Below are positions 10,416 through 52,803 of a DNA stretch of 64,000 bases, piece by piece; position 1 is the stretch's first letter, and every line of letters starts with the position of its first letter. The stretch comes from an uncultured Sterolibacterium sp. (GTDB taxonomy: Bacteria > Pseudomonadota > Gammaproteobacteria > Burkholderiales > Rhodocyclaceae): positions 1-64,000 of the forward strand of contig CAILCO010000120.1 of NCBI GenBank assembly GCA_903832735.1. Direction: 5' to 3'. Under the pieces are notes generated by a model, which was given only the letters and a program-made list of their open reading frames with translations, searched no databases and was not told where the DNA came from. A program made the translations under genes and the position numbers.

Positions 10416-10473
10416 TTTGCTGCGCTACGCGGTGGGAGAATCACTACCAAGAATCCAGGCGAGCGTGGCTTTA

Positions 10474-12213: not shown

Positions 12214-12243
12214 AGACGCGCCTCGCCGCGACCCTTACGCACC

Positions 12244-14004: not shown

Positions 14005-14032
14005 GCATTTTTCCATCTTCGGGAATATCGCC

Positions 14033-15397: not shown

Positions 15398-15401
15398 TCC
15401 C

Positions 15402-21204: not shown

Positions 21205-22608
21205 ATGTTCCAGAGAATTCTTAGTTTGCGTCAGTGTTTGTATTCCTTGTTGTTCCTGCTCGTTTCCTTGCCAGCCGCAGCACAGTCGTTCAAGGTTCAG
21301 TGTCCGCCGACGACGACGCTGCATCCCGGCAAGAGCACGGATGTCGGTTCCATAAAATGCCAGGAGATTTCCGGCGGCGACGGCTACGCGACGATGGGCG
21401 ATGGTCACCAGATCTACCTCTTCGGCTTCGGCCCCTTGTCCGGCCTGGGCGCCATCACAGCCGGCCAGCCCGGGACCCAGTCCGCGGCGGTGTTCAATAC
21501 CGCGTACGACGCCACGAGCAATCCGAACGGGACCAACACTGATCCCTCGTCGATCATGAATACCGGCGTGCTCAATGCCAACCAGCCGGCTCCGCTGATG
21601 GCGATCGACGAGGACGACGAGTTCTTCCTCACCCTGAGCAATGTCGGCATGATCATGCGGCCCGACCTGTTCGAGCAGCACACCGTGCACTTCCACGGCT
21701 ATCCCAACGCCTCGTCCTACTTCGACGGCGTGCCCGATGCCTCGGTCGCCATCGGCATCTCCGGCAGCATGAGCTACTACTACACCGCGCCGGATGCCGG
21801 CACCTATTTCTGGCATTGCCACATCACGCCGCCCGAGCACCTGCAGATGGGCATGGTCGGTCAGCTCTATGTCCGGCCGCGGCAGAACCGGGTGCCGGTC
21901 GGCGTGAAGCTGAGCGACGCCCTGATTGCCCAGAACAAGCTGGCGCCGGGCGCAGCCACAAGCAATGGCATCGGCTGCACGGACATCCTGTGCACCGGTC
22001 AGACCCCGGTGCCGGCTGTCACCACAACGCAGAAGAAGGGTGCCCTGTATGCCTACAACGATGGCGACGGCTCGACGCGTTACGACGTCGAATACCCGAT
22101 CCAGATGATGGGCTTCGATCCGAACTTCCACTTCGTCGGCATGACCTTCAATCCGGAGCGGTTCGCCGACATGAAGGACAAGTATTTCATGTTGAACGGG
22201 CGCAGCTATCCCGATACGGTGAATACCACCGCCATCTCCACGGAAGCTTCCGACGGCGTCTCCCGCCCGTCTCAGCCCTTGCCCGCCAAGATCACCATTC
22301 CTCACGGGGGCAGGGCACTGTTGCGGGTATCCGACCTTAGCGTCACGGAGTTCACCACCCTGGCGACGATCGGCATCCCGATGCTGGTGATCGCCGACAA
22401 CGCCCGCCTGCTGCGCGACATGGCCGGCAACAACCTGTACTACAACTCCAACTCGATCACCCTGGGCGGCGGCGAATCCAAGGACGTGATCCTCGACGCC
22501 AATAACGTTCCCGCCGGCACGTACTTCCTGTACAGCACGAACCTCGATCATCTCTCGAATGACGCAGAAAACTTCGGCGGCATGATGACCGAGATCGTCG
22601 TTTTGTAG
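21205..22608 (+). CDS. Cupredoxin protein carrying the type 1 copper half of a split multicopper oxidase
   Basis: A 467-residue exported protein (signal LYSLLFLLVSLPAAAQS). The first cupredoxin domain (about 60-235) has His159-x-x-His162-x-His164 (HTVHFHG) and, 40 residues later, WHCHITPPEHLQMGM. That second motif supplies Cys205, flanking His204/His206, His212 and Met215 or Met217. These residues give a whole type 1 site plus two of the four His-x-His pairs of a trinuclear centre. The second domain (about 270-467, ending LYSTNLDHLSNDAENFGGMM) lacks copper ligands. A normal oxidase needs two more His-x-His pairs, and these are in the next gene. It has a strong GGAGG 5 bases before the ATG. 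It resembles pieces of the large MofA/MnxG-type and OmpB-type bacterial multicopper oxidases. The substrate (Mn, Fe, phenolics) cannot be told. Confidence 0.8.
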   Translation: MFQRILSLRQCLYSLLFLLVSLPAAAQSFKVQCPPTTTLHPGKSTDVGSIKCQEISGGDGYATMGDGHQIYLFGFGPLSGLGAITAGQPGTQSAAVFNTAYDATSNPNGTNTDPSSIMNTGVLNANQPAPLMAIDEDDEFFLTLSNVGMIMRPDLFEQHTVHFHGYPNASSYFDGVPDASVAIGISGSMSYYYTAPDAGTYFWHCHITPPEHLQMGMVGQLYVRPRQNRVPVGVKLSDALIAQNKLAPGAATSNGIGCTDILCTGQTPVPAVTTTQKKGALYAYNDGDGSTRYDVEYPIQMMGFDPNFHFVGMTFNPERFADMKDKYFMLNGRSYPDTVNTTAISTEASDGVSRPSQPLPAKITIPHGGRALLRVSDLSVTEFTTLATIGIPMLVIADNARLLRDMAGNNLYYNSNSITLGGGESKDVILDANNVPAGTYFLYSTNLDHLSNDAENFGGMMTEIVVL

Positions 22609-22617
22609 GAGCAAAAA

Positions 22618-24165
22618 ATGACATTCTCGACGAAGATGAAAGCGGCTGCTCTAGCCCTGGCGATCGCCGTGGCCAGCACCTCGTTCATGAAGCCCGCGGC
22701 CGCCGCCGTCCCCGGTATCAGCGGGGGTACCGCCGGCGCCGCGACTTTCAACCTGAGCGCGAGCGCCGACCTGATTTCGCAACCGGATGGAGCGATGATC
22801 TACTCCTGGGGCTACGGTTGCAGCAGCGGTTTCACTCCGGTCTTCCAGCCGTCGGGCACGGCGTCCAGCATACCGGGCGCCAACTGTCCGCTGATGCAGT
22901 TGCCGGGGCCGACCCTGATCGTTACCGAGGGACAAACCGTCACCGTCAACCTCACCAACAACCTGCCGGTCGCGGCTGGCAATACCTCGATCATCTTCGA
23001 AGGTTTTCCGCTCTGTGCCGTCACGCCGGCCACCGCGGCCACGCCGACCACGGCGGCCGTCCCGGCGTCCTGCGCCGTCACCGCCACCGGCGGCGTGGCC
23101 GGCCTGCTGACCCAGGAGGCGGCGCATGGCACCACGGTGGCTTACAGTTTCACCGCCGACAAGCCCGGCACCTATGCCTATCACAGCGGCAGCCAGGCCG
23201 ACCTGCAGGTCGAGATGGGCCTCTACGGCGCGCTGATCGTGCTGCCGAAGACACCGGCCAGTTGTACCAGCAACAATAGCGGTACGAACTATTCGCTGGC
23301 GAGTTCCGCCTATGATCATCCGGGCACCTGCTACGACCGGGAATACCTGTTCCAGTTCAGCGAAATGAACTCGACGATCCACCAGCAGGCCGAAGCCCAG
23401 GCCGGCGGTCCCGGGCCCATCCTGGTGACTACCGAGCCCTACCATCCGAACTACTTCCTGATCAACGGCCGTTCGATGCCCGACGACATGGATGGCCCGT
23501 ACTCGCCTGCCTATGCGCATCAGCCGTACAACGGCAATCCGCACATGCATCCGGGCGAGTTGATGCTGATGCGGGTGATCGGCCAGGGTCGCTGGCAGCA
23601 TCCCTTCCACTTCCACGGCAACCATGCCCGGGTGTTGGCCAATGACGGCAACCTGCTGCTGGCGCAGAACGATCCGCAACAGCATCTGGCCGGCCCCTTG
23701 AAGTTCACCATCGGCACGGTGCCCGGACAGACCGTCGACGCCGTCTTCACCTGGACCGGGCAGGGCCTCAACTGGGATGTCTACGGCCTGACCAATCCGC
23801 ATACCTGCAACACTAAGGCCCTTTCCACTACCCCTGGCGATCCGGCCGTGCAATCGGCTGGTTTCGATCCGGTGACGCACGAGTATTGCCCGGATCATGG
23901 CAAGCCCATCCCGGTGACGCCACCCGACCCGCAGATCGTCGCCAATGGCCTGTGGTACGGCGGCACGCCCTACCTCGGCCTGCAGGCGGCGAGTCTGACG
24001 CCGCTGCCGCCGGGACAGATCCGGCAGAACTTCGATGCCGGCTATGCCTACATGTGGCACTCGCACAACGAGCGCGAGATCACCACCAGCGATGTATTTC
24101 CGGGCGGGATGATGATGATGATGATCATCGATCCGCCGACTTCCCCCATAGACGAAACGCTGTAA
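22618..24165 (+). CDS. Cupredoxin protein carrying the type-1-less half of a split multicopper oxidase
   Basis: A 515-residue exported protein (signal ending FMKPAAAAV). The N-terminal cupredoxin (about 25-210) has no copper ligands (YHSGSQADLQVEMGLYG at the usual site). The C-terminal domain has His328-Pro-Phe-His331-x-His333 (HPFHFHGNH) and His481-Ser-His483 (YMWHSHNERE) followed by FPGGMMMMMI. Ser482 sits where a type 1 copper would need Cys, so this domain can only give type 2/3 ligands. Those two pairs plus the two in the preceding protein make exactly the eight histidines of a trinuclear cluster. The start has TAGGAG six bases upstream and the gene lies 9 bp after its partner, consistent with equal expression. 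WHSHNERE...GGMM is a hallmark of the large MofA/MnxG-like oxidases. Confidence 0.8.
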   Translation: MTFSTKMKAAALALAIAVASTSFMKPAAAAVPGISGGTAGAATFNLSASADLISQPDGAMIYSWGYGCSSGFTPVFQPSGTASSIPGANCPLMQLPGPTLIVTEGQTVTVNLTNNLPVAAGNTSIIFEGFPLCAVTPATAATPTTAAVPASCAVTATGGVAGLLTQEAAHGTTVAYSFTADKPGTYAYHSGSQADLQVEMGLYGALIVLPKTPASCTSNNSGTNYSLASSAYDHPGTCYDREYLFQFSEMNSTIHQQAEAQAGGPGPILVTTEPYHPNYFLINGRSMPDDMDGPYSPAYAHQPYNGNPHMHPGELMLMRVIGQGRWQHPFHFHGNHARVLANDGNLLLAQNDPQQHLAGPLKFTIGTVPGQTVDAVFTWTGQGLNWDVYGLTNPHTCNTKALSTTPGDPAVQSAGFDPVTHEYCPDHGKPIPVTPPDPQIVANGLWYGGTPYLGLQAASLTPLPPGQIRQNFDAGYAYMWHSHNEREITTSDVFPGGMMMMMIIDPPTSPIDETL

Positions 24166-24190
24166 GCGCGACTCTACTAGGAGTATGAAA

Positions 24191-27100
24191 ATGCCAGCCA
24201 CCACGATTGCCCAAAGCCTGCTGCGGAACCTGGCGCGGAGCATTGCGCTCAGCGCGGCCGTTCTCCTGACCTCGGCGGGAAGTTCCGCACCGGTGCAGGC
24301 GCAGGCTACGCCCACGGTCACGGTGAACCTGACGGCGCAGCGCATGAGCAAGATGCTGCCCGACGGTAAATCGGTGCCGATGTGGGGCTACTGCAGCACC
24401 GGTAGTTGTAGCGCGAACTGGACGCCGGGACCGACCATTACGGTGCCGACCGGCAGCGGGCTGACGATCAATCTGAGCAATAAGCTGCCGACGCCCACCT
24501 CCCTGGTGATCCTCGGCCAGATCGGCGGCAACCTGGGTAATCCAGCAAAATTCGCCAGCCCGGCGCACCAGGCGCAGACCACCACCACCTGGCCAAACAT
24601 CACCCCTTCGACATTCACGCCGCCGGCGCAAGGGCAACGCGCCCGCTCTTTCGGCACTGAAGCCCCGGTCGGTGGCGTTGCCGTGGCTTACACCTGGAGT
24701 GCCTTGAAACCCGGCACCTATCTCTACGCCACCGGCACCCATCCCTCGATTCAGCAGCCGATGGGACTCTATGGCCTGCTGGTGGTGACCGCCGCGCCGG
24801 TGACCACCAGCAGCGGCGTGCCGCTAGCGGTGACCGGCATTACCACCCCGGGGCTGGCCTATCCCACAGTGGCCTACGATGCCGACGCTGCCTTCCTGTT
24901 CAGCGAAATCGATCCGGTGCAGAACCAGGCCGTCGATGCCGTGGCCTCTCCGCTGTGTCCGGCGGGCATATGTACCGGCACACTCAATGAGAACCTCTAT
25001 CCGGCGGCGGTGAATTATGCGCCGACCTATTTTCTGATCAACGGCAATTCCTTCGACGTCTCGGCGCCGGGGAATTCCACCCAGCCCATTGCCGGTGTCT
25101 CGTCCACCGGCAACGTCCTGCTGCGCTTCGCCAATGCCGGATTGCGTACTCACGTTCCCGCAGTGGTCGGCGCGAAGATGGCGCTGGTCGCCATGGACGG
25201 CAATGTCCTGCCGGGCAACCCCGGCGTCCAGACCGAGGCGCTGCTCACCGCGGGCAAGACCTACGATGCAGTGATCATGCCGCCGGCTTCCGGTGGCGCC
25301 TATGTGCCCAATTATTTCCCCGTTTTCGATCGCCAGTTGAGCCTGTCGACCGGCAACATGCCCAATGGCGGGATGATCGCCTACCTGCAGATTGGCACGC
25401 CGCTAACGCTGCCGCCGACAGTCACCGCCAAGGTCGTCGATGATGTGTACTCTGCGCCTCTCCTGGGTGCCATGAACGGCAACGTGCGCAGCAACGACAT
25501 CGCCGTGCCGGCGGTGCTGGCCGCGAACATCGCGACGAAATACGGCAACGTGGTGCTCAATGCCGACGGCAGCTTCGTCTACACCAACACCAGCACCCCC
25601 GTGCCCTTGACTGCGACCGCATTCCAGGACAGCTTCACCTACAGCGCCAATCCCGCCGTTGCGAACGCGGCGAATGCGCTCATCAGCTACGCGACGGTCA
25701 CCCTCAACGTTGCCGGGAAAGGCTCGGCACCGACGGCCGCGGCCTATTCCTACACCACCAATGTCGCCGGCTTCGTCAAGGTACCCCGGCCCGGGGCGCT
25801 GACCAATGCCCATGACGGCAGCGTGCCGGGCTTTCCGCTGACCCCGGTGCTCGACACGACCAAGCCCAACACCTGCGGCGCCGTGTTCACCAGCGATAAG
25901 ACCGGCGCCTACGATGGCTCCTTCACCGCCACGTTGCCGACGACAGCCACCTCGTGCAGCTTCAACTACTTTGCCAAGAATTCCCAGGGCACTGTCAGCC
26001 CGACCTCGGCGACGGTCACCGTGCAACTGCCCGCCGGCCTCAAGGCCAGCGGCATCAAGCTGGCGGTGGTCGATGCGCAGAATCGCAGCCTGGTGATCAG
26101 CGACTACCGCTGGACGATAGAGGAAGACACCACCTTCCATACGCCTCCCGGTTTCACGCCGCCCCTGGTCGCCGGTACGCCGACGCCTAGCCTGGCCACC
26201 AGCTTCCACAAGAGCTACATGCCGGTCGTCGCGACCGGTTGCACCGGCCCGGTCAGTTGCGGCCAGGGCCAGACGATAGCCGGCGTGGCGGTGCCGCTGC
26301 AGCCGCAGACGACAATCGATCAGGTCGCGCTCGATCCGGCCAAGTACTACTTCGTCTCGGTCATGCCCGGCGACGGCGCCAACGCCTTCACCCCGACGAT
26401 GGTCGCGGCGAACAATAGCGGCGGACACACCATGGGCGGCGTGGCGATTCCCGCCGGCACGCTGGCCAATGCTACCGTCACCGCCCTGGTCGAGCCCAAC
26501 CCGCTGCAACCGGCGCAACTGAGCGTCTTTATCTTCGAGGACAACGCGCCGACCAACAACGATCCGGACTCCGGCGAACCGGGCCTGGGCGGCTTCGAGG
26601 TGATCATCGTCGACGTCGGCGGGCGCACCGGCGACCCGGTCGGGCAGATGACCTACGACGCCTTCAACATGCCGTTGACCAACGCCCTGCTAGGCATGCC
26701 CGGCTGTCCCGACCTGCTAAGCCAGAATCCGGTCCAGGATGCGGCCGACGGCCACAGCCTGATCGGCGTCATCTATACCTGTCCGGACGGCATCGACCCG
26801 GCCACCGGCGCGCAATACACCCTGGCCGGCCAGGCCCTGGTGAAGAACCTGATGCCGGGCCGCTTCGACGTCATCGCCCGGCCGGGCGCCGACCGGGCGG
26901 GCGAGACCTGGTACCAGGTGTCGACGCTGGAAGGCACGCCCGGCCAGGATGCCTTCGCCAAGTCGGGAGAGCCGGCCTACTTCCAGGAGTTCGGCCCGCC
27001 GGGCTTCCACACTTTCATCGGTTTCCTCAATCCCGACCACATCAATGCGGCCAACGCGGCGGCCAATGACAAGTCGCTCGGCGGACCGTTCAACAACTCG

Positions 27101-30100
27101 ATCACCGGCACGGTGACCAACCTGCACATGTCGCGGCCGGTCGAGGAAACCCTCTGGGATTCCGCTTCGCGCGCCCCGCTGGCGCACACCACCTGCCTGG
27201 TCGGCCTGAACCAGACGACCGGCAGCACCCAGAACATCGCCTTCGCGCAATGCGACCAGAACGGCAACTTCACCCTGAACAGCGTGCCCCCAGGCGACTA
27301 CCAGATCGTCGTCTGGGACGAGTGGCTGGACCAGATCATCGCCTTCAAGGCGGTCACCGTTCCGGCCGGCAAGGGCCGTGCGGTCTCGGTCGGCGACGTG
27401 CCGGTGTTCAGCTGGTTCACCCGCGTCGAGCAAAGCGCCTATCTCGATCTCAACAACAACGGCATCCGCGATCCCGGCGAGCCGGGCATCGCCCAGATCC
27501 CGATGGACATCCGCTTCCGCGACGGCAGCCTGTCCAATCTGACGCAAACCGATTCCAACGGCTACGGCACCTTCAACGAACTGTTCCCGTTGTTCAACTG
27601 GTACGTCACCGAGTCGGACACCACCCGCTTCAAGGGCACCGGCGTGAACGTCACCGTCGATGCCGGCGGCAAGCCCGATGCCAGCGGCCCCTATGCCGGC
27701 ATCCTCAATTCGACCTACGGCGCGGTGCCCACTCCCTATCTGCCGCCGTGCCCGGCGGCGCCGCCGCTGGCCACGGCCGCGACTTCGCCGAGCAACATCA
27801 CGACGCCGTGCAACCCGACGCTGAACCCCAACAGTACCAACCGCATCGACCCGGGTACGACGCTCTACGAGGGCCTGATGGGCTTCATCGGCCAGACCGC
27901 AAAAATCGACTGGGGCAAGCTGCCCTACAATCCCGGCGAGAACGGCGGCATCCAGGGCATCGTCGCCTACTATTCGACCCGTCCCTTCGACGACGTCCGC
28001 TTCGACCTGCAGAACCTCTGGGAGCCGCTGGTGCCGCGCGTCACGGTCAATCTCTACCAGGAGGTCACCCTGGCCGACGGGAGCCAGGGCCTGAGCTTCA
28101 TCGAGGCTACCCAGACCACCAGTTGGGACGACTTCGCCAACGGCAGCACCGGCGGCAAGCCGAACATGCAATGCCCGGGACAGTCGCCGACCGATCCCTA
28201 CCTGACCTATACCCTGGGCGTGGCCAACCAGTTCAAGTGCTATGACGGCTTCCACAACTGGAACCAGGTGCAGCCCGCGGTCTATGACGGCGCCTATACC
28301 TTCAAGACCCTGCCCGACGGCAAGACACCGCTGCCCGTCGGCAAGTACGTGGTCGAGATCATCCCGCCGCCCGGCTACATCATCACCAAGGAAGAGGATA
28401 AGAACATCCTCATCGGCGACGCCTGGGTCGCGCCGGTGACCCAGCAATTCGGCGCCCTCGCCAACATCTTCATCCTGCCCGACCAGGCGACCATCGGCAA
28501 CGCCAATCGCAACAACCCTGCTTACGCCTCGCTTGCCGCAAACGGCACGCCGCAGGTCGGCGCCGGCGGCGTGCAGAGCAATGCCACCAGCGATCTCGGT
28601 CGCACCAACGGCGGCCTGACCTTCCCGATCTGCGTCGGCGCCATCCACCGCGTGCCGGACTACCTCAGCCTGTTCCCGCTGGCGCAGCAGGTCGCGCCCT
28701 TCGCCGGCGCCGACAAGCCGCTGTGCGACCGCAAGGAGGTGACGCTGGAAGACCAGACGCAGGCGCAAGCCAACTTCTTCATCTACACCGAGGCGCATAT
28801 CGCCAGTCATTTCACCGGCATGATCCTCGACGATGCCGCTTCCGAGACCAATGCCGCGGCACCGGACTTCGGCGAGAAATTCGCCGTGCCCTACGTGCCG
28901 GTCTCGATCAAGGATTTCGCCGGCGTCGAGATCTCCCGCGTCTATGCCGACCAGTGGGGCACCTTCAACGGCCTGACGCCGTCCTCCTGGCAGGTCAATG
29001 TGCCCAACCCGGCCGGCTATTCGCCCAACATGCTGATCACCTGCATGAACGATCCCGGCCCGATCGCCGATCCCAAGGGCACGATCGATCCCAAGACCGG
29101 CAAGGTACAGCTGATCGTCGATCCGCAGTACAACCCGGCGTACAGCAACTTCTGCTACACCAATCCGTTCATGCCCGGCATGACCGACTATCTGGATACG
29201 CCGGTGCTGCCGGTCGCCGCCTTCGCCTCGGGCTACAACCCGGCCGACTGCGCCTATCCGGCGGCCACGCCGGCGATCAAGCGGGTCGATGGCAACGGCC
29301 TGTTCGGCCCCTATATCGACACCAGCCTGGTCGGCACCAAGACCCTGACCATCACCGGCCTGGGCGACGTGCAGGTCGATAATCCGGCCTATCAGGGGCC
29401 GAGCCAGCCCGGCACCTCGATCTACGGGCAGAAGAAGGTGACCCGCCACTACGGCTTCGGCACCTTCGCTACCGGCGCCTCGGTAGCGCTGATCGACGGC
29501 AACGGCGTCAGCCGCGCGCTGACCGTCACCGCCGCGACCTGGGCCGACCAGCTGATCACCGCCACCGTGCCGACCACCGGTGCGACCGCCATCCCGGCCG
29601 GCACCTATCAGCTGGTGATCACCACCGCCGCCGGCACCTCGTCGATCGACACCGCGACGGTGACCATCGAGAACTCCACGACGGCAGCGCTGGTCGTCGG
29701 CGCACCAGCGACCATTCCGGCCACCCGCAACACGGTGCGCTATGTTTCCCAGAGCAGCACGGCGGCTGGGGTGTTCACCAGCATCCAGGCCGCGATCAAC
29801 GCCGCCTATCCGGGCGACCTGATCATGGTCGATGAGGGCTACTATCCGGAACTGGTGGTGATGTGGAAGCCGGTGCGCCTGCAAGGCATCGGCGCCACCG
29901 CGGTGGTCATCAACGCCGCCAAGTACCCGACCAACAAGCTGGAGGCCTGGCGGCCGGTGATCAACAACCTGTTCGGCATCACGGTCACCGGGCCCAATGC
30001 CGGCAATCAGGCTGCGACCTGGCAGGTGGATCCCCTGCCGGGACAGGAAGTGACCGGCGGCATCGTGCTGCTCGAACCTTCCGTCCTGGCCACGGAAGAG

Positions 30101-33100
30101 GGCGCCGGCGTCACCGTCCTGGCCAAGGGCTATGCCGCCGACGGCGTCACGCCGCTGACCGGCAGCGTCGCCGACTGCGGCTTCAGCACGGCGAGTGTCG
30201 ATCCGGCCGTGGATCTCGATCCGACCAGCAGCGGCTATAACCCGCAACCCGGCCTGAGCAACTTCCTCTGCGCGGCTTCGCGCATCGACGGCGTCAGCGT
30301 CACCGGCGGCGATGCCGGCGGCGGCATCTTCGTCAATGGCTGGGCGCACAACCTCAATATTTCGAACAACCGCGTCTATGGCAATGCCGGCGCCTTCAAC
30401 GGCGGCATCCGCGTCGGCATCCCCAACCTGGAAGCCCTGGCCGGCGCGCCGCGCGCCGGCTATGGCTTCGACAACAACGTGCGGGTGCACCACAACGCCA
30501 TCACCAAGAATGCCACCGTCGAAGCCCCGGCCGTGGCCGTCCTGGCCGGCGGCGGCGCCGGCGGCGGCGTGTCGATGTGCTCCGGTTCGGACAACTACAT
30601 GATCGATCACAACTGGGTCTGCGGCAACTATAGCGCCAGCGACGGCGGCGGCATCGGCCACAGCGGCGTGAGCATGAACGGGCAGATCCTGAACAACGCG
30701 ATCCTGTTCAACCAGAGCTACAACCAGAGCTCGACCATCAACGGCGGCGGCCTGGTGATCAGCGGTGAAGCGCCGGCGGCCGGCACCCTGACCAACGGTA
30801 CCGGCAACGTCCTGGTCGACGCCAACCTGATCGTCGGCAACATGGCCGAGGCCGGCCACGGCGGCGGCATCCGGGTGCAGATGGCGAACGGCATCGAAGT
30901 GGCCAACAATCCTGCCAACGTGGCCGGCCTGATCGATGTCAATGGCATCGCGCTGCCGACCTGGTATCAGGTCACCGTGAGCAACAACATGATCGTGAAC
31001 AACGTCGCCGGCTGGTCCGGAGGCGGCATCTCGCTCGCCGATACGGTCAATGCGGTGATCGTGAATAACACCGTGGCCAACAACGACAGCACCGGCATCG
31101 TCGGCGCGCTGATGACCGTGGGTCCGACCACCGGCCAGCCCAGCCCCGCCGGCATCGTCTCGCAGACCAACAGCACGGCGCTGGGCGCTGCGTCCGGCAA
31201 GGTGATCGCCAGCCCGATTCTGGAGAACAACATCGTCTGGCACAACCGCTCGTTCTTCTTCGACACGCCGCTGGTGGCGGGCGTGGCGACGGCCTCCATG
31301 TGCTCCTCGAACAACGTCGCCGACGCCGCGGCACACCGTTGCGTCACCTTGCCGGCCCAGACCGCGGCGGGCAGTTGCACCGGCACGCCGGCCTACTGGG
31401 ACCTGGGCGTGCTCGGCGACAGTTCGGCCGCGCCTGGCGCGATGCGGCTCAGCCCGAGCTATTCGATCCTGTCCTCCCTGACCGGCTACACCGGTACCGG
31501 TCTGCTGGCCGCCGACCCGCTATTCACCAAGCCGTATTGCAACGGTTCGCGTTCCAATCCCGGTTTGCAGTTCGAGCCCGGCCAGCCCTTCCTGCTGGCC
31601 TTCCAGCTGGCCGCCTCGGCGACCCTGGATGAAGCCGGCAACTTCGTGGATGTCCGTTTCGGCCCGCTGTCGCAGACCGACCCGCTCAATCCCACGGCGG
31701 CCACGACCAACGTCTTCTTCGGCAACTACGGGATAGCCGCGACCTCGCCGGCGGTCAATGCCGGGTCGTTCACCAACAATGCCCCGAACCACGACTACTA
31801 CGGCACGCTGCGGCCGGATGGCGGGGTCTTCGACATCGGCGCCGTGGAACTGAGACAGGCCGGCGCCAGCCACAACTTGCGGCCGCAACTGCTAGCCTTC
31901 GGCGACGTGGTGCAAAACCTCAGCAGCACGGCGCAGACGGTGACCCTGACCAATTCCGGCACCACCACCTTCACCGCCCTGACCTACACCTTCAGCTCGG
32001 CCCGCTACGCCCGGCCCGCCGGCGTGGCCGGCGGCAGCTGCGCCGCTACCCTGGCGGCGCAGACGAGCTGCACCATCAACATCGTGTTCACCCCGACCGC
32101 GCTGGCCACAGTCAATGCCACGCTGACGGTCGGCGGTCTGGGCGGCGTCAACAATACGGTGACTCTGACCGGCACCGGCGTCGCCGGCGGCCTGGTGGTC
32201 GCGCCGACGGCCCTGGCCTTCGGCTCCGACCCGCTCGGCGCGCAAAGCCCGTTCCAGACGGTCACGGTGTCCAACGTCGGCACGGCGGCGATCCAGTTCG
32301 ATGCGCTCACCGGGATGCAGATCCTCGGCGCCAATCCTAGCCAGTACGCCATCGATCAGACCAGCACCTGCGCCAACGGCCTGGCCATCCTGCCGGGCAC
32401 CCGCTGCACTGTGGTGCTGAGCTACACGCCGACTCTGCTCGGTGCCCGCCCGGCCAATCTGGTTCTGCATACCTCGGTGCCGCCCTCGACCACGGTCACC
32501 ACCTCGACCGTGACCATGACCGGTACCGGCGTGGTCGCGACCTCGACCTTTGTCGATCCCACCGCCTTGCCCTACGGACCGGTGCAGATCGGCCAGGTGG
32601 CGACGCTGACGGTCACCGTGAGCAATCCGCTGGCGACGCCGCTGCAGTTGAACGGCTTCACGATCACCGGCGCCAATGCCAACAACTTCCTCCGCCCGGC
32701 CGGCGTCGCCGGCGGCACCTGTGCCGTCGGTGCGGCCAACGCGGTGGCTTCGGGAGGGACCTGCACCATCAACCTCACCTTCCGGCCGGCTCTCGCCGCC
32801 GGTGCCAAGGTCGCCACGCTGAACATCGCCCGCGCCGGCGGTGCGGCGCTGGCGGTGCCCTTGAGCGGGGTTGCCGTCAGCCCGGCGCTGAGCCTCACGC
32901 CGTCGCCGCTGGTGATCCCGCCGCAGGCCTTGAACGTGACCAGTGCAGCGCAAGTGGTGACCCTGACCAATACCGGCATTGGGCCGTTGGCGATCACCCG
33001 CATCACCATCAGCAACGGGCCGCTGTTCGCTGTCAGCAACACCTGCGGCACCAGCGTCGCCGCCGGCGCCAGCTGCCTGATCAACGTGACGGTGCACCCG

Positions 33101-35419
33101 ACCACGGTCGCCGCCGCCGCCGCGACCCTGACGGTGCTCGACGCCGCCGGGACGCAGACGGTCGCGGTCACCCTGCAGGCGACTTCGGCCGCCTCGGCCG
33201 CGGTGTTGCCGACTGCCCTGGTCTTCGCCGCGCAACAGGTCAGCACCAGCAGCGCAGCGCAGGTAGTGACCCTGAGCAACACCGGACTGGCGCCGCTGCC
33301 GGTCACCAGCATCGCGATCATCGGCGCCAATGCCGCTGACTTCAGCCAGAGCAACAGCTGCGGCACTACACTTCTGCCCGGCGTCAGCTGCCCGATCAGC
33401 GTCAGCTTCACGCCGTCGGCGGCCGGTGCCAGGACGGCATCGCTGCGCATCATCGATCAGGGCGGAACGCAACTGGTGCCGCTCACCGGCACCGGCCAGC
33501 TGCCCTCGGCGACCCTGTCCTCGACCAGCTTCGCGCCGACTGCGCTGTTGGCCAGCAGCGCGCCGCAGATCGTGACCCTGAGCAATACCGGCGTGGGCCC
33601 GCTGACGATCAACAGCATCGCCCTGAGCGGGGTCAATGCCGCGGACTACACGATGAGTAACAACTGCGGCAACACGCTGATCTTCGCCTCGTCCTGCCAG
33701 ATCAGCGTGGTGTTCACGCCCGCGGCAGCCGGCGTGAGGTCGGCGACGCTCACCGTGATCTATGGCGGCGCGCTGAATCTGCAGGTGCAGAGTGTCTTGA
33801 ACGGCAGCGGCGGGATTCCGGTCGCAGCGCTGAGCCCGACCACGCTGCCTGCCTTCGCCAACCAGACGATAGCCACCACCAGTCCGGTCAAGACGCTGAC
33901 CCTGAGCAACACCGGGACCGGTCCGCTGGGCATCAGCGGCATCGTCCTGGCCGGCGCCAATCCCGGCGACTTCGCCCAGAGCAGCACCTGCGGCGCCAGC
34001 CTGGCCGCCGGCGCGAACTGCGCGATCAATGTCACCTTCACGCCCAGCGCCGCCGGCGCCCGGGCCGCGACCCTGACGATCAGCGATAACGATGCCCTGC
34101 ATCCGCAGTTTGTCGTTGCCCTGAGCGGTACGGGGATCGGTCCGGTGGCCTCGGTCTCGCCCACCAGCCTGACCTTTGTCGGCCAGACCGGTACGGCCAG
34201 CGCGGCTCAGACGATCACCTTGTCGAACACCGGCACGGCGCCGATGACGGTGAATAGCTACACCATCGCCGGGACCAACGCCGCCCAGTTCGCGCAGAGC
34301 AACACCTGCCCCGCCAGCCTGGCAGCGGGCGGTTCGTGCGTGATCAGTGTGAGCTTCACTGCCGCCGCCGTCGGCGCCGCCGGCCCGGCGACCCTGACCG
34401 TGAATGTTGCCGCCCCGGCCATCGCCCAGGTGGTGACGCTGAGCGGCACAGGTCAGGCGCCCTCGGGCACCCTGGCACCGGCCGCCCTGGCGTTCGGCTT
34501 CCAGACGGTCGGGGTGAGCAGCGCCACGCAGCCGGTGACCCTGAGCAATACCGGCATCGGGCCGCTCACCGTGGCCATCGCCCTGGGCGGCACCAACCCG
34601 ACGCTGTTTGCGCAGAGCAACAACTGCGGGGCCAGCGTCGCGGTCGGGGCGAGCTGCACCATCAACGTCAGCTTCACGCCGAATGCCGTCGGTGCGATGT
34701 CAGCGACGCTCTCCGCCGCCAATGCCGGCAGCGTCAGCCTGAGCGGCACCGGCGCGGTGGCGACCGGCAGCGCGACGCCGACCACGCTGACCTTCGCGTC
34801 CGAGGCGCCGGGCAGCACCAGCGCTGCGCAGACGGTGACGGTGAGCAACACCGGCAACGTGCCGCTGCCGATCGCGCCCAGCATCACCGGCGCCAACGCC
34901 GCGATGTTCGCGCTGACCAATAATTGCGGCACCAGCCTGGCCGTCGGCACGGCGACCTGCACCATCAGCGTGACCTTCAAGCCCACTGCAGCGACCACCA
35001 ACGGCGCCAAGACCGCGACGCTGAATCTCGGCACGGCGGTGAATCTCGGCGTGGGGGTGGCGCTGACTGGAACGGCGACGCTGCCGACCGCGACGCCGAA
35101 CCCGCTGGCCTTCCCGACCAACCTCTCTAGGGCAGCTTCCGCAACGCGTCTGGTCACGGTGCGTAACGCGGCGACGAATGGCTCGGTGACCATCACCGGC
35201 ACCTCCATCGCCGGCGGCAACGATCCTGCGGGCTTCACGGTCGTCGCCGCAGGGACCACCTGCACGGCAGGGGCGGTCGTGCTGCCGGGTGCTACCTGCG
35301 TGGTCAATGTGCGCTTCACTTCGCCGAACACGGCGCTGCCCCCGGCCACCAACCGGACGAGCACCCTGACCATCGCCAATTCGGCGAGCGCGCTGAACGT
35401 CGCGATGACCGGGCGGTGA
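24191..35419 (+). CDS. Giant secreted protein: cupredoxin-like, SdrD-like, beta-helix and HYDIN-like repeats
   Basis: About 3742 residues. Approximate layout: 1-40, signal ([15 protein letters not shown]); 43-405, two cupredoxin-like domains homologous to the preceding protein but with no copper ligands ([18 protein letters not shown]); 415-515, cadherin/VCBS-like; 516-620, Ig-like; 620-1640, several SdrD B-like units ([38 protein letters not shown]); 1710-1830, IPT/TIG-like; 1850-2560, right-handed parallel beta-helix (many NN-x-V/I-x-N turns); 2565 to the end, eleven repeats of about 105 residues of the HYDIN/choice-of-anchor D kind. No C-terminal anchor, PEP-CTERM or RTX motif is seen. The ATG at 24191 is preferred, since AGGAG is 7 bases from it but only 1 base from the ATG at 24185. 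A Sec signal makes T2SS export plausible. The likely role is a surface scaffold for the oxidase. Confidence 0.82.
31879..35416 (+). repeat. Eleven tandem HYDIN-like (choice-of-anchor D) protein repeats
   Basis: Each unit runs about 100-115 residues: a P-x-x-L-x-F entry, VTLSNTGxxPLxI, a G-A-N-x-x-x-F/Y segment, a two-cysteine loop (NxCGxSLxxGxxC), xINVxFTP, then ATLxVxxx and closing LSGTG. Units diverge by point changes rather than being identical, so the array is old. The paired cysteines in each repeat likely form a disulfide after export. Codon use is like the rest of the gene. Confidence 0.8.
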
Positions 35420-35895
35420 TCGTGAAGGCACAGGCACTGATGGCGATGGGCAGCAGGCGGGCAGCGGCGACGCTGCTGCTCGCCGGCCTGCTCTCAGCCG
35501 TCATCTCGGCACCAGCCTACGCAACCCAGCAGTCCGGCAGCTGGCACGCCCGCGAGGGCATGTATTTCCAGCGTGCCTGGGGGGTGGACTTCACCGGGGT
35601 GAAGGCGGTGTCGTCCGGCTACATGCTCCGTCTGAGTTATCGCATCGTCGATCCGGGCAAGGCCAAGCCGCTCACCGATGTCCATAACCGCGCCTATCTG
35701 ATCGACGAGGCCAGCGGCGTGCGGCTAGCCGTGCCGGCGATGGAGAACGTCGGCGAACTCCGCCAGACCGGCAAGGCGCAGGCCAATCGCAGCTATTTCG
35801 TGATCTTCGGCAATCCCGGACGCCTGGTCAAGCCAGGCAGCCGCGTCAGTCTGGTCGTCGGCAATTTCCGGGCTGACGGACTGATCGTCGATTAG
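35416..35895 (+). CDS. Small exported protein of unknown function, coupled to the giant gene
   Basis: A protein of up to 159 residues with a signal peptide (ATLLLAGLLSAVISAPAYA) and a mature part of about 120 residues rich in beta strands: YMLRLSYRIVDPGKAKPL, RAYLIDEASGVRLAVPAMENVG, YFVIFGNPGRLVKPGSRVSLVVGNF. I do not recognise the family. The GTG at 35416 overlaps the giant gene's stop (GTGA); the ATGs at 35440 and 35446 also leave a workable signal. Overlap and export signal suggest it acts with the giant protein or the oxidase in the periplasm or outside. Confidence 0.7.
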   Translation: MIVKAQALMAMGSRRAAATLLLAGLLSAVISAPAYATQQSGSWHAREGMYFQRAWGVDFTGVKAVSSGYMLRLSYRIVDPGKAKPLTDVHNRAYLIDEASGVRLAVPAMENVGELRQTGKAQANRSYFVIFGNPGRLVKPGSRVSLVVGNFRADGLIVD

Positions 35896-35911: not shown

Positions 35912-35950
35912 TTCTCGTTGCGCAAAATCATCATCGAGGAGGATGTTTTC

Positions 35951-36838
35951 ATGAAACGGAGAAACGCAATTTTGATCGGCCTGCTGGCTTCACTGCTGAA
36001 TCCCTTATCGCCCTTGCCGGCCTTTGCTGCGAGCGAGGCGGCGGCCAAGCTGACGGCGGAGCAGATCGTCGAACGCAATGTCGCCGCGCGTGGCGGCCTG
36101 GCCGCCTGGCGTGCCACCCGGACCATGAAGATGACCGGGCTGATGGACGCGGGACGGGTTAGGCCACAGTTGAAAAACCTCTACAACAATTCCCGCATGG
36201 ATGCCAAGACCGTCAAGGCCGAAATCAGGCAAGCCGTGCTCGCCCGCGACCGGGACGGCAAGGAGGGCAAGGATAGTGGACAACTGGTGCAACTGCCCTT
36301 CGTGCTGGAAATGAAGCGGCCGAACAAGTCCCGCCTGGAGCTGCAGTTCCAGAACCAGACCGCGGTGCAGACCTTCGACGGCGTCCATGGTTGGAAACTG
36401 CGCCCCTTCCTCGGGCGCATGGATGCCGATCCTTACACCGCCGAGGAAGTGAAGGCGGCCGAACAGCAACAGGCGCTCGACGGCCCGCTGATCGACTACG
36501 CCGCCAAGGGATCGCGGATCGCCCTGGAAGGTATCGAGAAGGTCGACGGACGCAGCGCCTACAAGATCAGGCTGACCCTGAAGACCGGTCAGGAACGCAA
36601 CATCTGGGTCGATGCGCAGAACTTCCTCGACGTCAAGACCGACGGCAGCCGCAAGCTGGACGGCAAGCCTCATGCGGTTGACACCCGCTTGCGCGACTAC
36701 CGTTCGGTTCATGGCCTGATGATTCCCCACTTGATCGAAACCAGCGTCGAGGGGGTCAGGGATAGCGAGCGGATCATCGTCGATCAGGTGGCGCTGAATC
36801 CGGAACTGGCGGATGCGCTATTCGGCAAACCCAACTGA
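35951..36838 (+). CDS. LolA-like periplasmic outer-membrane lipoprotein-sorting protein
   Basis: A 295-residue exported protein (signal LIGLLASLLNPLSPLPAFA). The mature part follows the LolA/LolB-like beta half-barrel pattern: AAKLTAEQIVERNVAARGGLAAWRATRT, KRPNKSRLELQFQNQTAVQTFDGVHGWKL, and ALEGIEKVDGRSAYKIRLTLKTGQERNIWVDAQNFLDVK, a typical closing segment of this superfamily. The ATG at 35951 has GAGGAGG 8 bases upstream, which decides it against the ATG at 35918. It lies 55 bp after the small exported gene, so it probably belongs to the copper-protein operon. Homologues of this type often sit beside secreted redox proteins; a role in lipid or lipoprotein handling is inference. Confidence 0.72.
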   Translation: MKRRNAILIGLLASLLNPLSPLPAFAASEAAAKLTAEQIVERNVAARGGLAAWRATRTMKMTGLMDAGRVRPQLKNLYNNSRMDAKTVKAEIRQAVLARDRDGKEGKDSGQLVQLPFVLEMKRPNKSRLELQFQNQTAVQTFDGVHGWKLRPFLGRMDADPYTAEEVKAAEQQQALDGPLIDYAAKGSRIALEGIEKVDGRSAYKIRLTLKTGQERNIWVDAQNFLDVKTDGSRKLDGKPHAVDTRLRDYRSVHGLMIPHLIETSVEGVRDSERIIVDQVALNPELADALFGKPN

Positions 36839-36929: not shown

Positions 36930-37367
36930 ATGGGGCAACTCCATCCCGCATCCCGCGTCAAGCTCAGCCCTGCTTCGAAAAAGCAGCTGGACGAGATCGT
37001 CCGCGCCCATCTGCGGATATTTTCCGCGGTCCGGAACTTTATCAGTTTGGCTCAGAGCGGCGCCGCCAAGGACACGCTCCTCCCCCTGATCGAGGTCATC
37101 CTGGAATCCTCGATTGCGCATTTCCGCGTCGAGGAGAATCTCGTCCATGATCTCAGGCATCCCAGCTACACCGCGCTCGCCGAGGCCCATTGCCAGATCG
37201 TGCTGGAACTGGTCAGGTTTCAGGACGCGGTGACGTCGGGGCGGGACATCTCCAGCAGCGAGTATCTCCATGTGCTGGACGATCTGATCATTCACGATAT
37301 CCTCGAAGTCCCGCTGTTCGACAAGTTCACCAAGCCGCCCCTGCGGCAATCGCCGTCTGCAAAATGA
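36930..37367 (+). CDS. Hemerythrin-like cation-binding protein
   Basis: A 145-residue four-helix-bundle protein. Candidate di-iron ligands follow hemerythrin order: H in VRAHLRIFSAV, H and E in SSIAHFRVEENLVHDL, H in LAEAHCQIVLEL, and H/D in LDDLIIHDILEVPL. The match to the HFxxEE motif is good, but the first motif lacks the usual IDxQH. Such proteins bind O2, NO or iron, or sense oxygen. A second, more canonical copy follows about 110 bp downstream. Confidence 0.7.
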   Translation: MGQLHPASRVKLSPASKKQLDEIVRAHLRIFSAVRNFISLAQSGAAKDTLLPLIEVILESSIAHFRVEENLVHDLRHPSYTALAEAHCQIVLELVRFQDAVTSGRDISSSEYLHVLDDLIIHDILEVPLFDKFTKPPLRQSPSAK

Positions 37368-37402
37368 CGGTCACTCCCACTATCGAGGTGCCGAGATGAA
37401 AC

Positions 37403-37470
37403 TACCCCCCCGCTCTCGTCGTTCGCTGCCCCCCGAGGGGGCTGGTCAGTACCTTGGGGCGGCCCGGCCG
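37403..37470 (+). repeat. G/C-run palindromic intergenic sequence
   Basis: Between the two hemerythrin genes lies a stretch with C-run, CGCTCTCGTCGTTCGCTG, CCCCCCGAGGGGG and then CTTGGGGCGGCCCGGCC. This style of intergenic filler is familiar from many betaproteobacterial genomes, where it recurs in dispersed copies. Only this copy is present in the window, so its repeat nature is from general knowledge. Confidence 0.4.
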
Positions 37471-37477
37471 TACTGAC

Positions 37478-38778: not shown

Positions 38779-40416
38779 ATGCGCGAGGGACATTTTCTGA
38801 AACCCGGCGTCTTCGTGATGCTGCTGCTGATCCTGGCGAGCCGGGGGATTTTCGCCGTGCCGCAGACGTTGCTCCCGTCTGTCGGCGAGTCGATCTACCG
38901 CGCCGGCAATCTGTCCGCCGCGTTGCCCCTGACCGGCCTGCGCGCAGGCGGTGCCAGCGTCGTGGGGGTTGCTGCGGCCTGCGTCAATTGCCACCGCCGG
39001 AGCGGACTGGGCACGGCGGAAGGCAGTACGGTCATTCCGCCGATCACCGGGAAATACCTGTACCGTCCCGACGTTGGGCATCTCGAGGACATGGACCTCC
39101 TCTACGCGCAAGGCAGGATCAGTCTCAGACGCGAAAGCTACGACGATCTCAGCCTGGCTCGGAGCATCCGTGAAGGTCTGGGGCGGGACGGGCGCAGGCT
39201 CGGTCCCTTGATGCCGCGCTACGCACTCGATGACGCCGCGATGGCGTCGCTGATCGCCTATCTGAAGACCCTGAGCAATGCTCCTGTGCCCGGGGTCAGC
39301 GACGATACCCTGCACTTCGCGACCATCATCACGCCCGACGCCGATCCGCTCGCCCGCCGCGGCATGATCGACGTGCTCGAGCGTTTCTTCGAGGACAAGA
39401 ACCAGTTCATCCGCGGCGGCAGGCGGGTCATGCAGGATCACAGAACGGTGGCATTCCGCGTCACCCGGCGCTGGCAATTGCATGTCTGGGAACTCAAGGG
39501 ACCGCCGGAATCCTGGCAAGCACAATTGCACAGCCGCCTGGCGGCCGAACCCGTGTTCGCCGTCATCTCCGGACTCGGCGGCAGGACCTGGGAACCGGTG
39601 CACCGCTTCTGCGAACAGGATGCCATTCCCTGCCTGTTTCCGAACGTGGATTTGCCGGTGGTGGCCGAGCGGGATTTTTACCCGGTGTATTTTTCCAGGG
39701 GCGTCCATCTCGAAGCCGATCTGATCGCGGCGGCCATCACCGGCAAAGAGCGCGCGCAGCGCGTGCTGCAAATCTTCAGGGAGGACGATATCGGCGCAGC
39801 GGCGGCGCAGTCCCTCGCCATCGCGGTCAACAAAGCCGGCTTGGTAAGCCTGAGCCGGCCGGTCAAGGCAGCCTCGGCCAAGGACGAACTGCTGCGGATC
39901 CTGCAGGAAGCCGGGCCGGACGATGTCCTGGTTTTCTGGTTGCGCCGCGACGATCTGCTGGCGCTGCCGGGGGCAGCGCCGACGGCCCGCCAGGTCTACA
40001 TCTCGGGCTTGATGGATGATTTTGCCGAGACCTCCTTGCCTGCGGCCTGGCGACCGCTGGTGCGCATGAGTTACCCGGTCGATCTGCCGAAACAAAGACA
40101 GTTCCGCACCACCTTCCCGCACGGCTGGTTCCGCATCCGCCACATCCCCGTGGTGGCCGACCGCGTCCAGTCGGACACCTATCTCGCCTGTGGAATACTG
40201 GCCGAGGCCTTGACCGACATGCTGGACATTTTCGAGCGCGATTTCCTCGTCGAGCGGATCGAGGACATGGTCAGCCGGCGCGTCTTGAGTGGCTACTACC
40301 CGCGGCTCGGCCTGGCACCGGGCCAGCGCTTTGCTTCCAAGGGCGGCTACATGGTTCATTTCGCAGACGCCGGCGGAGCGGATCTGGTTGCCGACGGCGA
40401 GTGGATCACGCCGTGA
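38779..40416 (+). CDS. Cytochrome c fused to ABC-type periplasmic ligand-binding protein
   Basis: A 545-residue exported protein. A signal segment (FVMLLLILASRGIFA) is followed by a mono-haem cytochrome c domain (about 35-175): CVNCH, then distal candidate Met in GPLMPRYALDD, and the closing helix MASLIAYLKTL. From about 180 to the end comes a type-1 periplasmic-binding fold like the branched-chain amino-acid or urea receptor family: LHFATIITPDADPLARRGMIDVLERFF, VFAVISGLGGRTWEPVHRFCEQDAIPCLFPNVDLPV, IFREDDIGAAAAQSLA, VRMSYPVDLP, DTYLACGILAEALTDMLD. No ABC permease is near, so a sensing or haem-gated role rather than uptake is likely; this is inference. A bipartite motif precedes it. Confidence 0.78.
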   Translation: MREGHFLKPGVFVMLLLILASRGIFAVPQTLLPSVGESIYRAGNLSAALPLTGLRAGGASVVGVAAACVNCHRRSGLGTAEGSTVIPPITGKYLYRPDVGHLEDMDLLYAQGRISLRRESYDDLSLARSIREGLGRDGRRLGPLMPRYALDDAAMASLIAYLKTLSNAPVPGVSDDTLHFATIITPDADPLARRGMIDVLERFFEDKNQFIRGGRRVMQDHRTVAFRVTRRWQLHVWELKGPPESWQAQLHSRLAAEPVFAVISGLGGRTWEPVHRFCEQDAIPCLFPNVDLPVVAERDFYPVYFSRGVHLEADLIAAAITGKERAQRVLQIFREDDIGAAAAQSLAIAVNKAGLVSLSRPVKAASAKDELLRILQEAGPDDVLVFWLRRDDLLALPGAAPTARQVYISGLMDDFAETSLPAAWRPLVRMSYPVDLPKQRQFRTTFPHGWFRIRHIPVVADRVQSDTYLACGILAEALTDMLDIFERDFLVERIEDMVSRRVLSGYYPRLGLAPGQRFASKGGYMVHFADAGGADLVADGEWITP

Positions 40417-44514: not shown

Positions 44515-44542
44515 CCAGTGTCCGGACAACAGGTGAGATGGC

Positions 44543-48238: not shown

Positions 48239-48243
48239 CGGCG

Positions 48244-52799: not shown

Positions 52800-52803
52800 G
52801 CCG

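Follow-up and report, generated by a model that had tools for sequence, protein, structure and literature searches.

A probable heterotrimeric multicopper oxidase with its active site divided over two gene products in an uncultured Sterolibacterium

Introduction

Whether the active site of a multicopper oxidase (MCO) can be assembled from the products of different genes is the question raised by two adjacent open reading frames (ORFs), A and B, in the window analysed here, a stretch of 64,000 nucleotides from contig CAILCO010000120.1 of an uncultured Sterolibacterium sp. As described in the accessible part of PMC13151041, the trinuclear centre of MCOs lies either within one chain (three- and six-domain enzymes) or between the protomers of a trimer (two-domain enzymes, 2dMCOs), the ligands in 2dMCO trimers coming from two protomers, and type C 2dMCOs carry the type 1 site in the N-terminal domain. 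A preliminary description of the locus proposed that one MCO active site is divided over two complementary polypeptides, A with a full type 1 site and two His-x-His pairs, B with two more pairs and a Ser for the type 1 Cys, and with the eight trinuclear histidines present only in the two together. All of this is borne out below by motif counts, invariant ligands and profile matches. The supposed assembly from just two polypeptides holds in that A and B would share the site, but homology and a structural proxy bring in a copper-free third module: it is probable that A, B and the next gene product, C, form a heterotrimeric ring derived from copies of a type C 2dMCO, with one active site shared by A and B. 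The features of the locus are listed in Table 1.

Table 1. Features of the A-B-C locus (positions in the window). Counts out of 96 loci include L041 and L047 (flank pieces) and L049 (compact pair).
Feature	Position	Strand	Evidence
Subunit A, cupredoxin protein of two domains; putative type 1 copper site and trinuclear half-site in domain 1, no copper ligands in domain 2	21205..22608	+	ORF; Pfam Cu-oxidase_2/_3; alignment A1; profile matches 3g5w domain 1
A H159-T-V-H162-F-H164, type 1 His and one HxH pair	21679..21696	+	His invariant in 13 sequences; 80/80 loci
A H204-C205-H206...H212...M217, type 1 Cys, His and Met and second HxH pair	21814..21855	+	invariant in 13 sequences; 80/80 loci
Subunit B, cupredoxin protein of two domains; no ligands in domain 1, putative second trinuclear half-site in domain 2	22618..24165	+	ORF; Pfam; alignment A2; model matches 2zwn and 3g5w
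B H328-P-F-H331-F-H333, HxH pair	23599..23616	+	H328, H331 and H333 invariant in 14 sequences; 79/79 loci
B H481-S482-H483, HxH pair with Ser at the type 1 Cys position	24058..24066	+	invariant in 14 sequences; HSH in 79/79 loci
Gene C, whole	24185..35419	+	
Subunit C module, N-terminal two-domain cupredoxin without copper ligands	24185..25399 (boundary approximate)	+	hhalign; alignment A7
Rest of gene C, giant part	25400..35419	+	Pfam
Gene D, small protein	35416..35895	+	homologues in 17/96 loci (count limited by flank length)
Gene E, LolA_like protein (weak match, below curated cut-off)	35918..36838	+	PF17131 E 2.3e-4; homologues in 7/96 loci
Cytochrome c domain protein of the neighbourhood	38779..40416	+	PF00034 E 4.9e-5; homologues in 16/96 loci

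Copper ligands of A and B

All ligands of A are invariant in 13 A homologues and all ligands of B in 14 B homologues (alignments A1 and A2). In named genomes, a relative is encoded by 442 stretches (tblastn E up to 1e-3); the best 80 were examined. The A motif is complete in 80/80 of these loci, partly by construction as regards HCH and the M-G-M end, since both belonged to the search patterns, unlike the HxxHxH motif of A and both motifs of B. B is complete in 79/79 loci, always with HSH, while at the 80th locus the contig ends before B. A second set of 13 loci, some of them on plasmids, overlaps the 80 named loci by two, because L036/L068 and L038/L062 appear, judging by length, to be identical contigs; the two sets are counted apart.

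From 110 residues before its HxxHxH motif onwards, A has no further HxH pair in any of the 80 loci. In B, which was checked from 330 residues before the HxxHxH motif to the end, the only extra pairs, found in nearly all of the 79 proteins, sit 17-19 residues before that motif. The four noted pairs are thus the natural candidates for trinuclear ligands. The MCO ligand set, i.e., a type 1 His-Cys-His-Met and four His-x-His pairs, is complete in A and B jointly and in neither singly.

The best sequence and structure matches are 3g5w (Nitrosomonas europaea blue copper oxidase) and 2zwn (metagenomic two-domain laccase), both of which are type-1-first. Aligned with both domains of 3g5w, the A profile retains the ligands of domain 1 and has lost those of domain 2; the B profile shows the reverse. 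At the level of sequence, A and B are the two halves which single-chain type C 2dMCOs combine; all four HxH pairs are found in one protein in the single-chain type C enzymes L163 and L164. As in type C 2dMCOs, there are two cupredoxin domains per chain and the type 1 motif occupies domain 1 (of A). Unlike in those enzymes, where each chain has both half-sites, neither A nor B carries both, the half-sites being on different gene products beside a copper-free third module. The type-1-first order seen in the preliminary description is real; it is the order of type C 2dMCOs, as the top matches indicate, and the MofA/MnxG arrangement invoked for it is not needed. A trinuclear site between subunits is less distinctive than was suggested, as 2dMCO trimers have one between identical subunits, and what is new is that its halves are on different gene products.

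A third, copper-free module

Gene C begins with a domain pair homologous to B over 276 columns (hhalign probability 100, E 3.5e-46), and for A-B as for B-C the homology covers domain 1 together with some or all of domain 2. When rows of C alone were included, the alignment placed C onto B, and in-frame B-C rows were substituted for them. A, B and C adjoin in 78/80 named loci, the two exceptions being on contigs of 3,672 and 4,091 bases. Only 4/78 C proteins of the named loci contain an HxH pair. As far as homology can tell, A, B and the C N-terminus are each a 2dMCO module, that of C being free of copper ligands, and such a third module at the start of the next gene makes a heterotrimeric A-B-C ring probable. 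The two-domain nature of the three proteins was missed in the preliminary description.

A, B and C are encoded by separate ORFs in the loci examined, among which a search for a natural A-B fusion found none. Long B-frame ORFs in L059 and L120 resembled such fusions and were rejected, being merely an open frame that crosses A in another frame. In the window, the A and B ORFs each have their own start, a Shine-Dalgarno-like sequence and an N-terminal signal-like stretch, the signals being judged by eye. Pfam matches in the giant part of C comprise many Ig repeats of the ASH/HYDIN/Cep192-like kind, an SdrD-B-like region and, scoring under the curated cut-off, a right-handed beta-helix. In several relatives it is a separate upstream gene (own ORFs in L037, L039, L042, L044, L045 and L048).

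Predicted structures and proposed enzyme

The B model superimposes on 2zwn with Z 29.8 (278 residues, rmsd 2.3) and on 3g5w with Z 29.5, and two-domain enzymes also match the L037 model in its A part, 3wia for instance with Z 27.5 over 259 residues. For the assembly, AlphaFold2 models of single-chain read-through proxies were used in place of a multimer, a method that can favour proximity; pTM was 0.82 for A-B and 0.80 for A-B-C. In the A-B model, pLDDT is below 50 for A150-A181, which holds H159, H162 and H164, so that this half-site loop of A is poorly modelled.

Among the 50 VIA alignments listed for the A-B-C model, with 2dMCO and nitrite reductase chains, 22 start in A and continue into C, against a single one that continues into B, each range being defined by its first and last aligned residue only. 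Alignments from A into C are expected if C follows A, and B domain 2 would therefore precede A domain 1. Eight of the 22 are with three-domain nitrite reductases and reach their end in the cytochrome part of these enzymes, leaving 14 that bear on the two-domain core. Ceruloplasmin and MnxG are absent from the 50 alignments listed, which counts as no evidence against them. Ceruloplasmin has one trinuclear site. Like the assembly proposed here, ceruloplasmin and MnxG (9bxa) have six cupredoxin domains and are Foldseek whole-chain matches to the models; they differ in being single chains rather than three, and the sequential superposition is poor (TM about 0.2 for ceruloplasmin). Such a result fits a ring order A-C-B, which is beyond a sequential aligner, and fits a non-ring arrangement as well. 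MnxG turned up solely as a Foldseek whole-chain match.

A, B and C probably form a ring with one centre where A domain 1 meets B domain 2. The three modules would be diverged copies of a type C 2dMCO. Their six cupredoxin domains would make up a ring that has just one active site and is assembled outside the cytoplasm, probably in the extracellular space. A type 1 copper would be bound in A domain 1 by H159, C205, H212 and M217, and the trinuclear cluster would lie between A domain 1 (H162, H164, H204, H206) and B domain 2 (H331, H333, H481, H483). Electrons from the substrate would enter at the type 1 copper and travel through the H-C-H motif, and the cluster would use them to reduce O2 to water. 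C, having lost its ligands, may close the ring and, in the many lineages where it is fused to the giant repeat protein, may hold the enzyme at the cell surface. The likeliest substrate would be Fe(II), perhaps mineral-bound, or Mn(II).

Compact gene pairs and the place of C

The split is repeated, less cleanly than in A-B-C operons, by compact B'-A' gene pairs in 13/14 fetched loci. Additional HxH pairs occur in some A' and B' proteins, and HCH occurs in three B'. In 9/13 pairs a Tat motif is present on B' and no export signal on A', the type 1 half. The flanks that were fetched contained no third homologue, indicating that C is not universally needed or that a second B' takes its place.

These two-gene pairs lend some support to another arrangement, in which the site shared by A and B belongs to a heterodimer or to a ring of composition A:B:B (or A:A:B), with C as an anchor or adhesin outside the core, its fold kept by chance; that C is nearly devoid of HxH pairs and usually fused to a giant repeat protein points the same way. 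Nevertheless, C is the two-domain homologue closest to B, accompanies A and B in 78/80 named loci and folds with them in the A-B-C proxy (pTM 0.80), and an assembly without C is considered unlikely.

In a tree with single-chain outgroups (47 rows: 7/13 compact pairs, 9 each of A, B and C, 6 outgroups), a single clade (99/97) unites the subunits without a type 1 site, b, B and C, with B and C as sisters (100/97), and A and a are not separated from the outgroup. Without outgroups (61 rows: 11/13 compact pairs, 13 each of A, B and C), A and a group together (100/98). Degenerate domains may attract one another in such trees. A broader view of the heterotrimeric ring, for which the chances appear evenly balanced, is that it belongs to an ancient superfamily of obligate heteromeric MCOs, in which duplication of a two-domain homotrimer gave one half with the type 1 site and another with trinuclear ligands only, and the two have to come together for an active site to form. 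Compact pairs would represent the earlier stage, perhaps as A':B':B' rings in which the Tat signal of B' serves to export A' too, and in A-B-C operons a second B copy would have become the copper-free C, fused to a giant surface protein. Both would then be natural intermediate forms that link two-domain homotrimers with six-domain single-chain oxidases.

Comparison with other copper proteins

A could also be a type 1 electron-transfer cupredoxin and B a metal-binding protein, with neither a trinuclear site nor oxidase activity. The type 1 site is indeed complete in A, the trinuclear ligands are divided equally between the two proteins, and the model is poor for one ligand loop of A. However, a pure type 1 protein needs neither H162, H164, H204 and H206 nor the four histidines of B, all of which are invariant and together are exactly the MCO set. 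Much the same ligand complement recurs in the compact pairs as well, and this explanation seems very unlikely.

In copper nitrite reductases, His-Cys is followed by a residue other than histidine (His-Cys-Ala/Gly) and a single type 2 copper is held by three His. A was rejected as such an enzyme on its HCH, present in 80/80 A proteins of the named loci (partly owing to search design) and 13/13 of alignment A1. That A and B form homo-oligomers acting as separate enzymes, e.g., a nitrite-reductase-like trimer of A, is extremely improbable even though both halves match copper nitrite reductases strongly in structure, since A has His-Cys-His and the ligands lost from A domain 2 and B domain 1 would leave homotrimers of either without the second half-site.

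Distribution and relation to metal-oxidizing bacteria

The operon was found in 11/369 genomes of the class (E 1e-12; counting the window's genome and the G159 compact pair) and in 2/398 of the phylum (E 1e-30; own genome counted). Among 60 other genomes, including 36 of the window's own genus and family, there were only weak MCO-domain matches, the best with E 1.4e-8 in a genome of the same order, indicating that the operon is patchy.

A cluster of the same make-up, Slit_1812-1818 of Sideroxydans lithotrophicus ES-1, was expressed more highly in late magnetite cultures than with Fe(II)-citrate, according to the part of PMC12016527 covered. Like the present operon, it encodes two MCO-motif proteins, a larger motif-free protein with adhesin/lyase-like domains, an SCO1 and a cytochrome, the likeness being one of gene content, not of ES-1 sequence. 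Its products are treated in the covered parts as three cupredoxin proteins, with complementary half-sites or a joint enzyme absent from those parts (PMC12016527). As it is widespread and this cluster was raised on magnetite, the family bears on how bacteria may oxidise mineral iron. If the A-B-C enzyme exists as proposed, it would be misleading to label these proteins of iron oxidisers "two MCOs and a cupredoxin". With the halves supplied by different genes, neither product should be an oxidase alone, and assays of single genes would miss the enzyme. The proposed ring also offers a testable intermediate for the origin of six-domain oxidases such as ceruloplasmin. By title and start of abstract, no split, heterotrimeric, heteromeric or Tat hitch-hiking MCO with a shared site appeared in the literature searched, whose coverage leaves many subscription papers outside.

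The manganese oxidases MofA and MnxG resemble the present system in their MCO motifs and in having SCO or cytochrome genes nearby, and differ from the A/B split in that each holds all four motifs in one protein, MofA being set apart by its description (PMC8218464, accessible part). In the window itself, gene D has no Pfam match. In L051, an SCO1 copper chaperone gene lies close to the cluster.

Complementary copper half-sites in A and B

Both A and B, the successive genes carrying complementary half-sites, matched the Pfam families Cu-oxidase_2 and Cu-oxidase_3, and the start of C gave a weaker Cu-oxidase_3 match. The ligands assigned in the preliminary description, a complete type 1 site plus two His pairs in A (H159, H162, H164, H204, C205, H206, H212 and M217) and two further pairs with Ser in place of the type 1 Cys in B (H328, H331, H333, H481, S482 and H483), were all found as described and do not vary across the aligned sequences (13 of A, 14 of B). 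The split of the half-sites over two proteins is solid; the single active site that it was proposed to create, formed jointly by the A and B products, is well supported, with a predicted geometry. Among the two-domain multicopper oxidases (2dMCOs), A-B-C is most aptly called a heteromeric variant, and the assembly is probably heterotrimeric.

Positions of the operon genes and neighbouring features in the window
Feature	Position	Description
Type I secretion set (apparent)	10417-16838	two ABC transporters, HlyD-like, TolC-like; upstream of operon
A	21205-22608	467-aa ORF
B	22618-24165	515-aa ORF; 9 bases between A and B
C	start 24185	3744-aa ORF after B
C remainder	25400-35419	SdrD-B-like, beta-helix-like and ASH/HYDIN/Cep192-like Ig repeats
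D	start 35416	159-aa ORF after C
Hemerythrin-domain genes	36930-37912	two consecutive small genes, first weakly matched; between operon and cytochrome gene
Type II secretion genes GspG, GspE, GspD	44083-53701	downstream of operon

Profile comparison indicates which domain keeps which half-site. The best match of A was the type C two-domain oxidase 3g5w (E 8.6e-21), whose domain 1 motifs HTIHWHG and HCH...EH...GM align to the A ligands, while the domain 2 ligands are replaced in A. The same structure was the best match of B (E 5.2e-19) with the pattern reversed: domain 1 ligands are lost, and HAIHTHG and MIHDH of 3g5w domain 2 align to HPFH.HG and MWHSH. A and B are themselves homologous (hhalign 99.8%, E 4.2e-28), and the homology of B to C is stronger (100%, E 3.5e-46), its 276 columns taking in all of domain 1 but only the beginning of domain 2; at the position of HPFHFH, C has an HVPAVVG-like stretch, with one His retained in most. 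Deinococcus ficus and Halomarina encode relatives (L163, L164) that carry the domain 1 motifs of A and the domain 2 motifs of B on a single chain. According to the available sections of PMC13151041, type C 2dMCOs have the type 1 site in the N-terminal domain, and two protomers of a 2dMCO trimer supply the trinuclear ligands. Taken together, these domain matches, single chains and two-protomer sites point to A domain 1 and B domain 2 as one standard site, so that A domain 2, B domain 1 and both C domains would be retired faces.

Predicted structure

A and B share a reading frame, so reading through the sole TAG gives a single natural chain, for which AlphaFold2 (57 aligned rows) returned a mean pLDDT of 78.4 and pTM of 0.82. 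In genome G161 (locus L037), A, B and C share one frame, and with three stops read through a 1200-aa A-B-C stretch (52 rows) gave pLDDT 78.0 and pTM 0.80. Both pTM values are taken as confident relative placement of the modules in these single-chain read-through models. The weak point of the A-B model is A150-A181, including H159-H164, with pLDDT below 50; the ten-residue blocks with HPFHFH and HSH of B reached 83 and 77. The closest structures to B were 2zwn (Z 29.8, 278 residues, 2.3 A) and 3g5w (Z 29.5).

Of 50 structural alignments of the A-B-C model that begin in A, 22 extend into C, where they stop at residues 942-1076; one stops in B and the other 27 by residue 395, in A or the linker after it. 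Eight of the 22 C-ending alignments are to three-domain nitrite reductases and have their ends in the cytochrome part; the other 14 are not. Nitrite reductase tails reach across onto the neighbouring subunit. Together with this crossing, the A-to-C alignments suggest C as the module next after A in the proposed ring; B domain 2 would then lie beside A domain 1. Whole-chain Foldseek matches to ceruloplasmin, factors V/VIII and Mnx 9bxa combine excellent E-values with TM of about 0.2, as expected if ring order differs from gene order, which is no proof of a ring.

Conservation and distribution of the A-B-C operon

By tblastn and genome searches, homologues of the operon were found in relatives of the same class and on replicons of Cupriavidus metallidurans and Paraburkholderia. 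One contig scan with the A alignment yielded 442 stretches coding for a relative at a tblastn E of up to 1e-3; the 80 best of these were retained. These 80 include Paraburkholderia, Burkholderia, Cupriavidus, Collimonas, Trinickia, Pandoraea, Glaciimonas, Noviherbaspirillum, a Sideroxydans and a Gallionellaceae MAG, Granulicella, other Acidobacteria and Myxococcales-labelled MAGs. The A ligand set is complete in 80/80, where the search patterns contained the HCH and MGM stretches of A and none of the remaining A and B motifs. B lies on the same strand in 79, with ligands complete in all 79 and HSH every time, and C is present in 78; the two loci without C (L055, also without B, and L059) are on contigs of 3,672 and 4,091 bases. 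No further HxH pair occurs in any of the 80 A proteins from 110 residues before HxxHxH onwards. In nearly all of the 79 B proteins a single additional HxH site stands 17-19 residues ahead of HxxHxH, and HxH occurs in the first 430 residues of 4 of the 78 C proteins. An apparent second operon copy on a separate contig was seen in Burkholderia, Paraburkholderia, Acidobacteria and gammaproteobacterial MAG assemblies (L064/L101, L066/L084, L067/L072, L054/L114, L058/L129, L089/L107).

Compact B'-A' pairs

A second, compact family consists of a partner half B' and a type 1 half A', which in locus L049 are 312 and 336 aa long. Of 369 genomes of the class searched with B', 32 gave a match at E 1e-15, some of these matches being A' or A-B-C family members. 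Loci of 5-9 kb from 14 of the 32 were examined; the two genes are adjacent in 13, and L146 stops at its contig end. When the ORFs of these 14 loci were compared by BLAST with A, B, C, A' and B', no third homologue appeared beside the pair. H..HxH and HCH...H..MG are present in A' of all 13 pairs; in B' one HxH lies around residues 232-296 in 13/13, and a second was seen in 12/13 (not L147). The halves complement each other less cleanly than A and B do, with extra HxH pairs in A' of L145, L147, L152 and L156 and in B' of L155, L157 and L158. In L150, L152 and L156 the second pair of B' reads HCH, placing a Cys at the type 1 position, and no type 1 His or other part of that site occurs within the stretch seen.

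Signal assignments come from visual inspection and simple hydropathy scanning. B' bears a twin-arginine RRxFL motif in 11/13 pairs, and NCBIfam TAT_signal matched the L153 B', the sole RRxFL-type B' scanned. A' lacks a signal-like stretch in nine pairs (L150-L158), all nine with the Tat motif on B'; both proteins have Sec-like signals in L148 and L149, A' has its own Tat-like signal in L145, and its start is unclear in L147. The pairing of an oxidase half that lacks a signal with a partner that has a Tat signal suggests that A' may be co-exported with B' as a folded heteromer, hitch-hiking on the B' signal.

Origin of the halves

A tree of 61 rows sets each of A, B, C, A' and B' on one side of a branch, with A and A' grouped (100/98) and B and C grouped (98/96). 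When six single-chain outgroups are included, B', B and C stay together (99/97), B and C being sisters (100/97); A and A' are not resolved from the outgroup. The simplest reading, with long branches as a caveat, is that one ancient split may have produced a type 1 half and a trinuclear-only half, C probably being a later copy of B with its ligands lost.

Genomic neighbourhood and the Sideroxydans cluster

A search for the locus tags Slit_1812-1818 of Sideroxydans lithotrophicus ES-1 gave PMC12016527 alone. Its available sections describe a trio of cupredoxin proteins, with canonical MCO motifs in two of them but not in the larger third, which bears adhesin/lyase-like domains, together with SCO1 and a cytochrome; expression late in magnetite culture exceeded that on Fe(II)-citrate, and similar clusters were reported in Paraburkholderia, Ralstonia, Anaeromyxobacter and Steroidobacteraceae. 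Those sections make no mention of complementary half-sites. The cluster is equated here with the window operon via gene content, not direct alignment. Metal oxidation, after PMC12016527, is the favoured guess for the putative activity.

The giant repeat part is fused to C in some lineages and is its own gene upstream of A in several relatives; a SCO1 gene lies upstream in L051. Neighbours were counted in 96 loci (BLAST, E 1e-8), with flanks of at most 10-16 kb often filled by the giant gene. Under these limits no homologue of the hemerythrin-domain genes was found, and the type I set gave weak ABC matches in three loci and none for HlyD or TolC. The window cytochrome c protein has a homologue in 16 loci, the transglycosylase and GspE in 14 each, and GspD and GspG in 13 each; the weaker of the Gsp matches may represent different proteins of secretion or pilus systems. 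The window GspD carries a cohesin domain at residues 665-779 (PF00963, E 7.8e-12).
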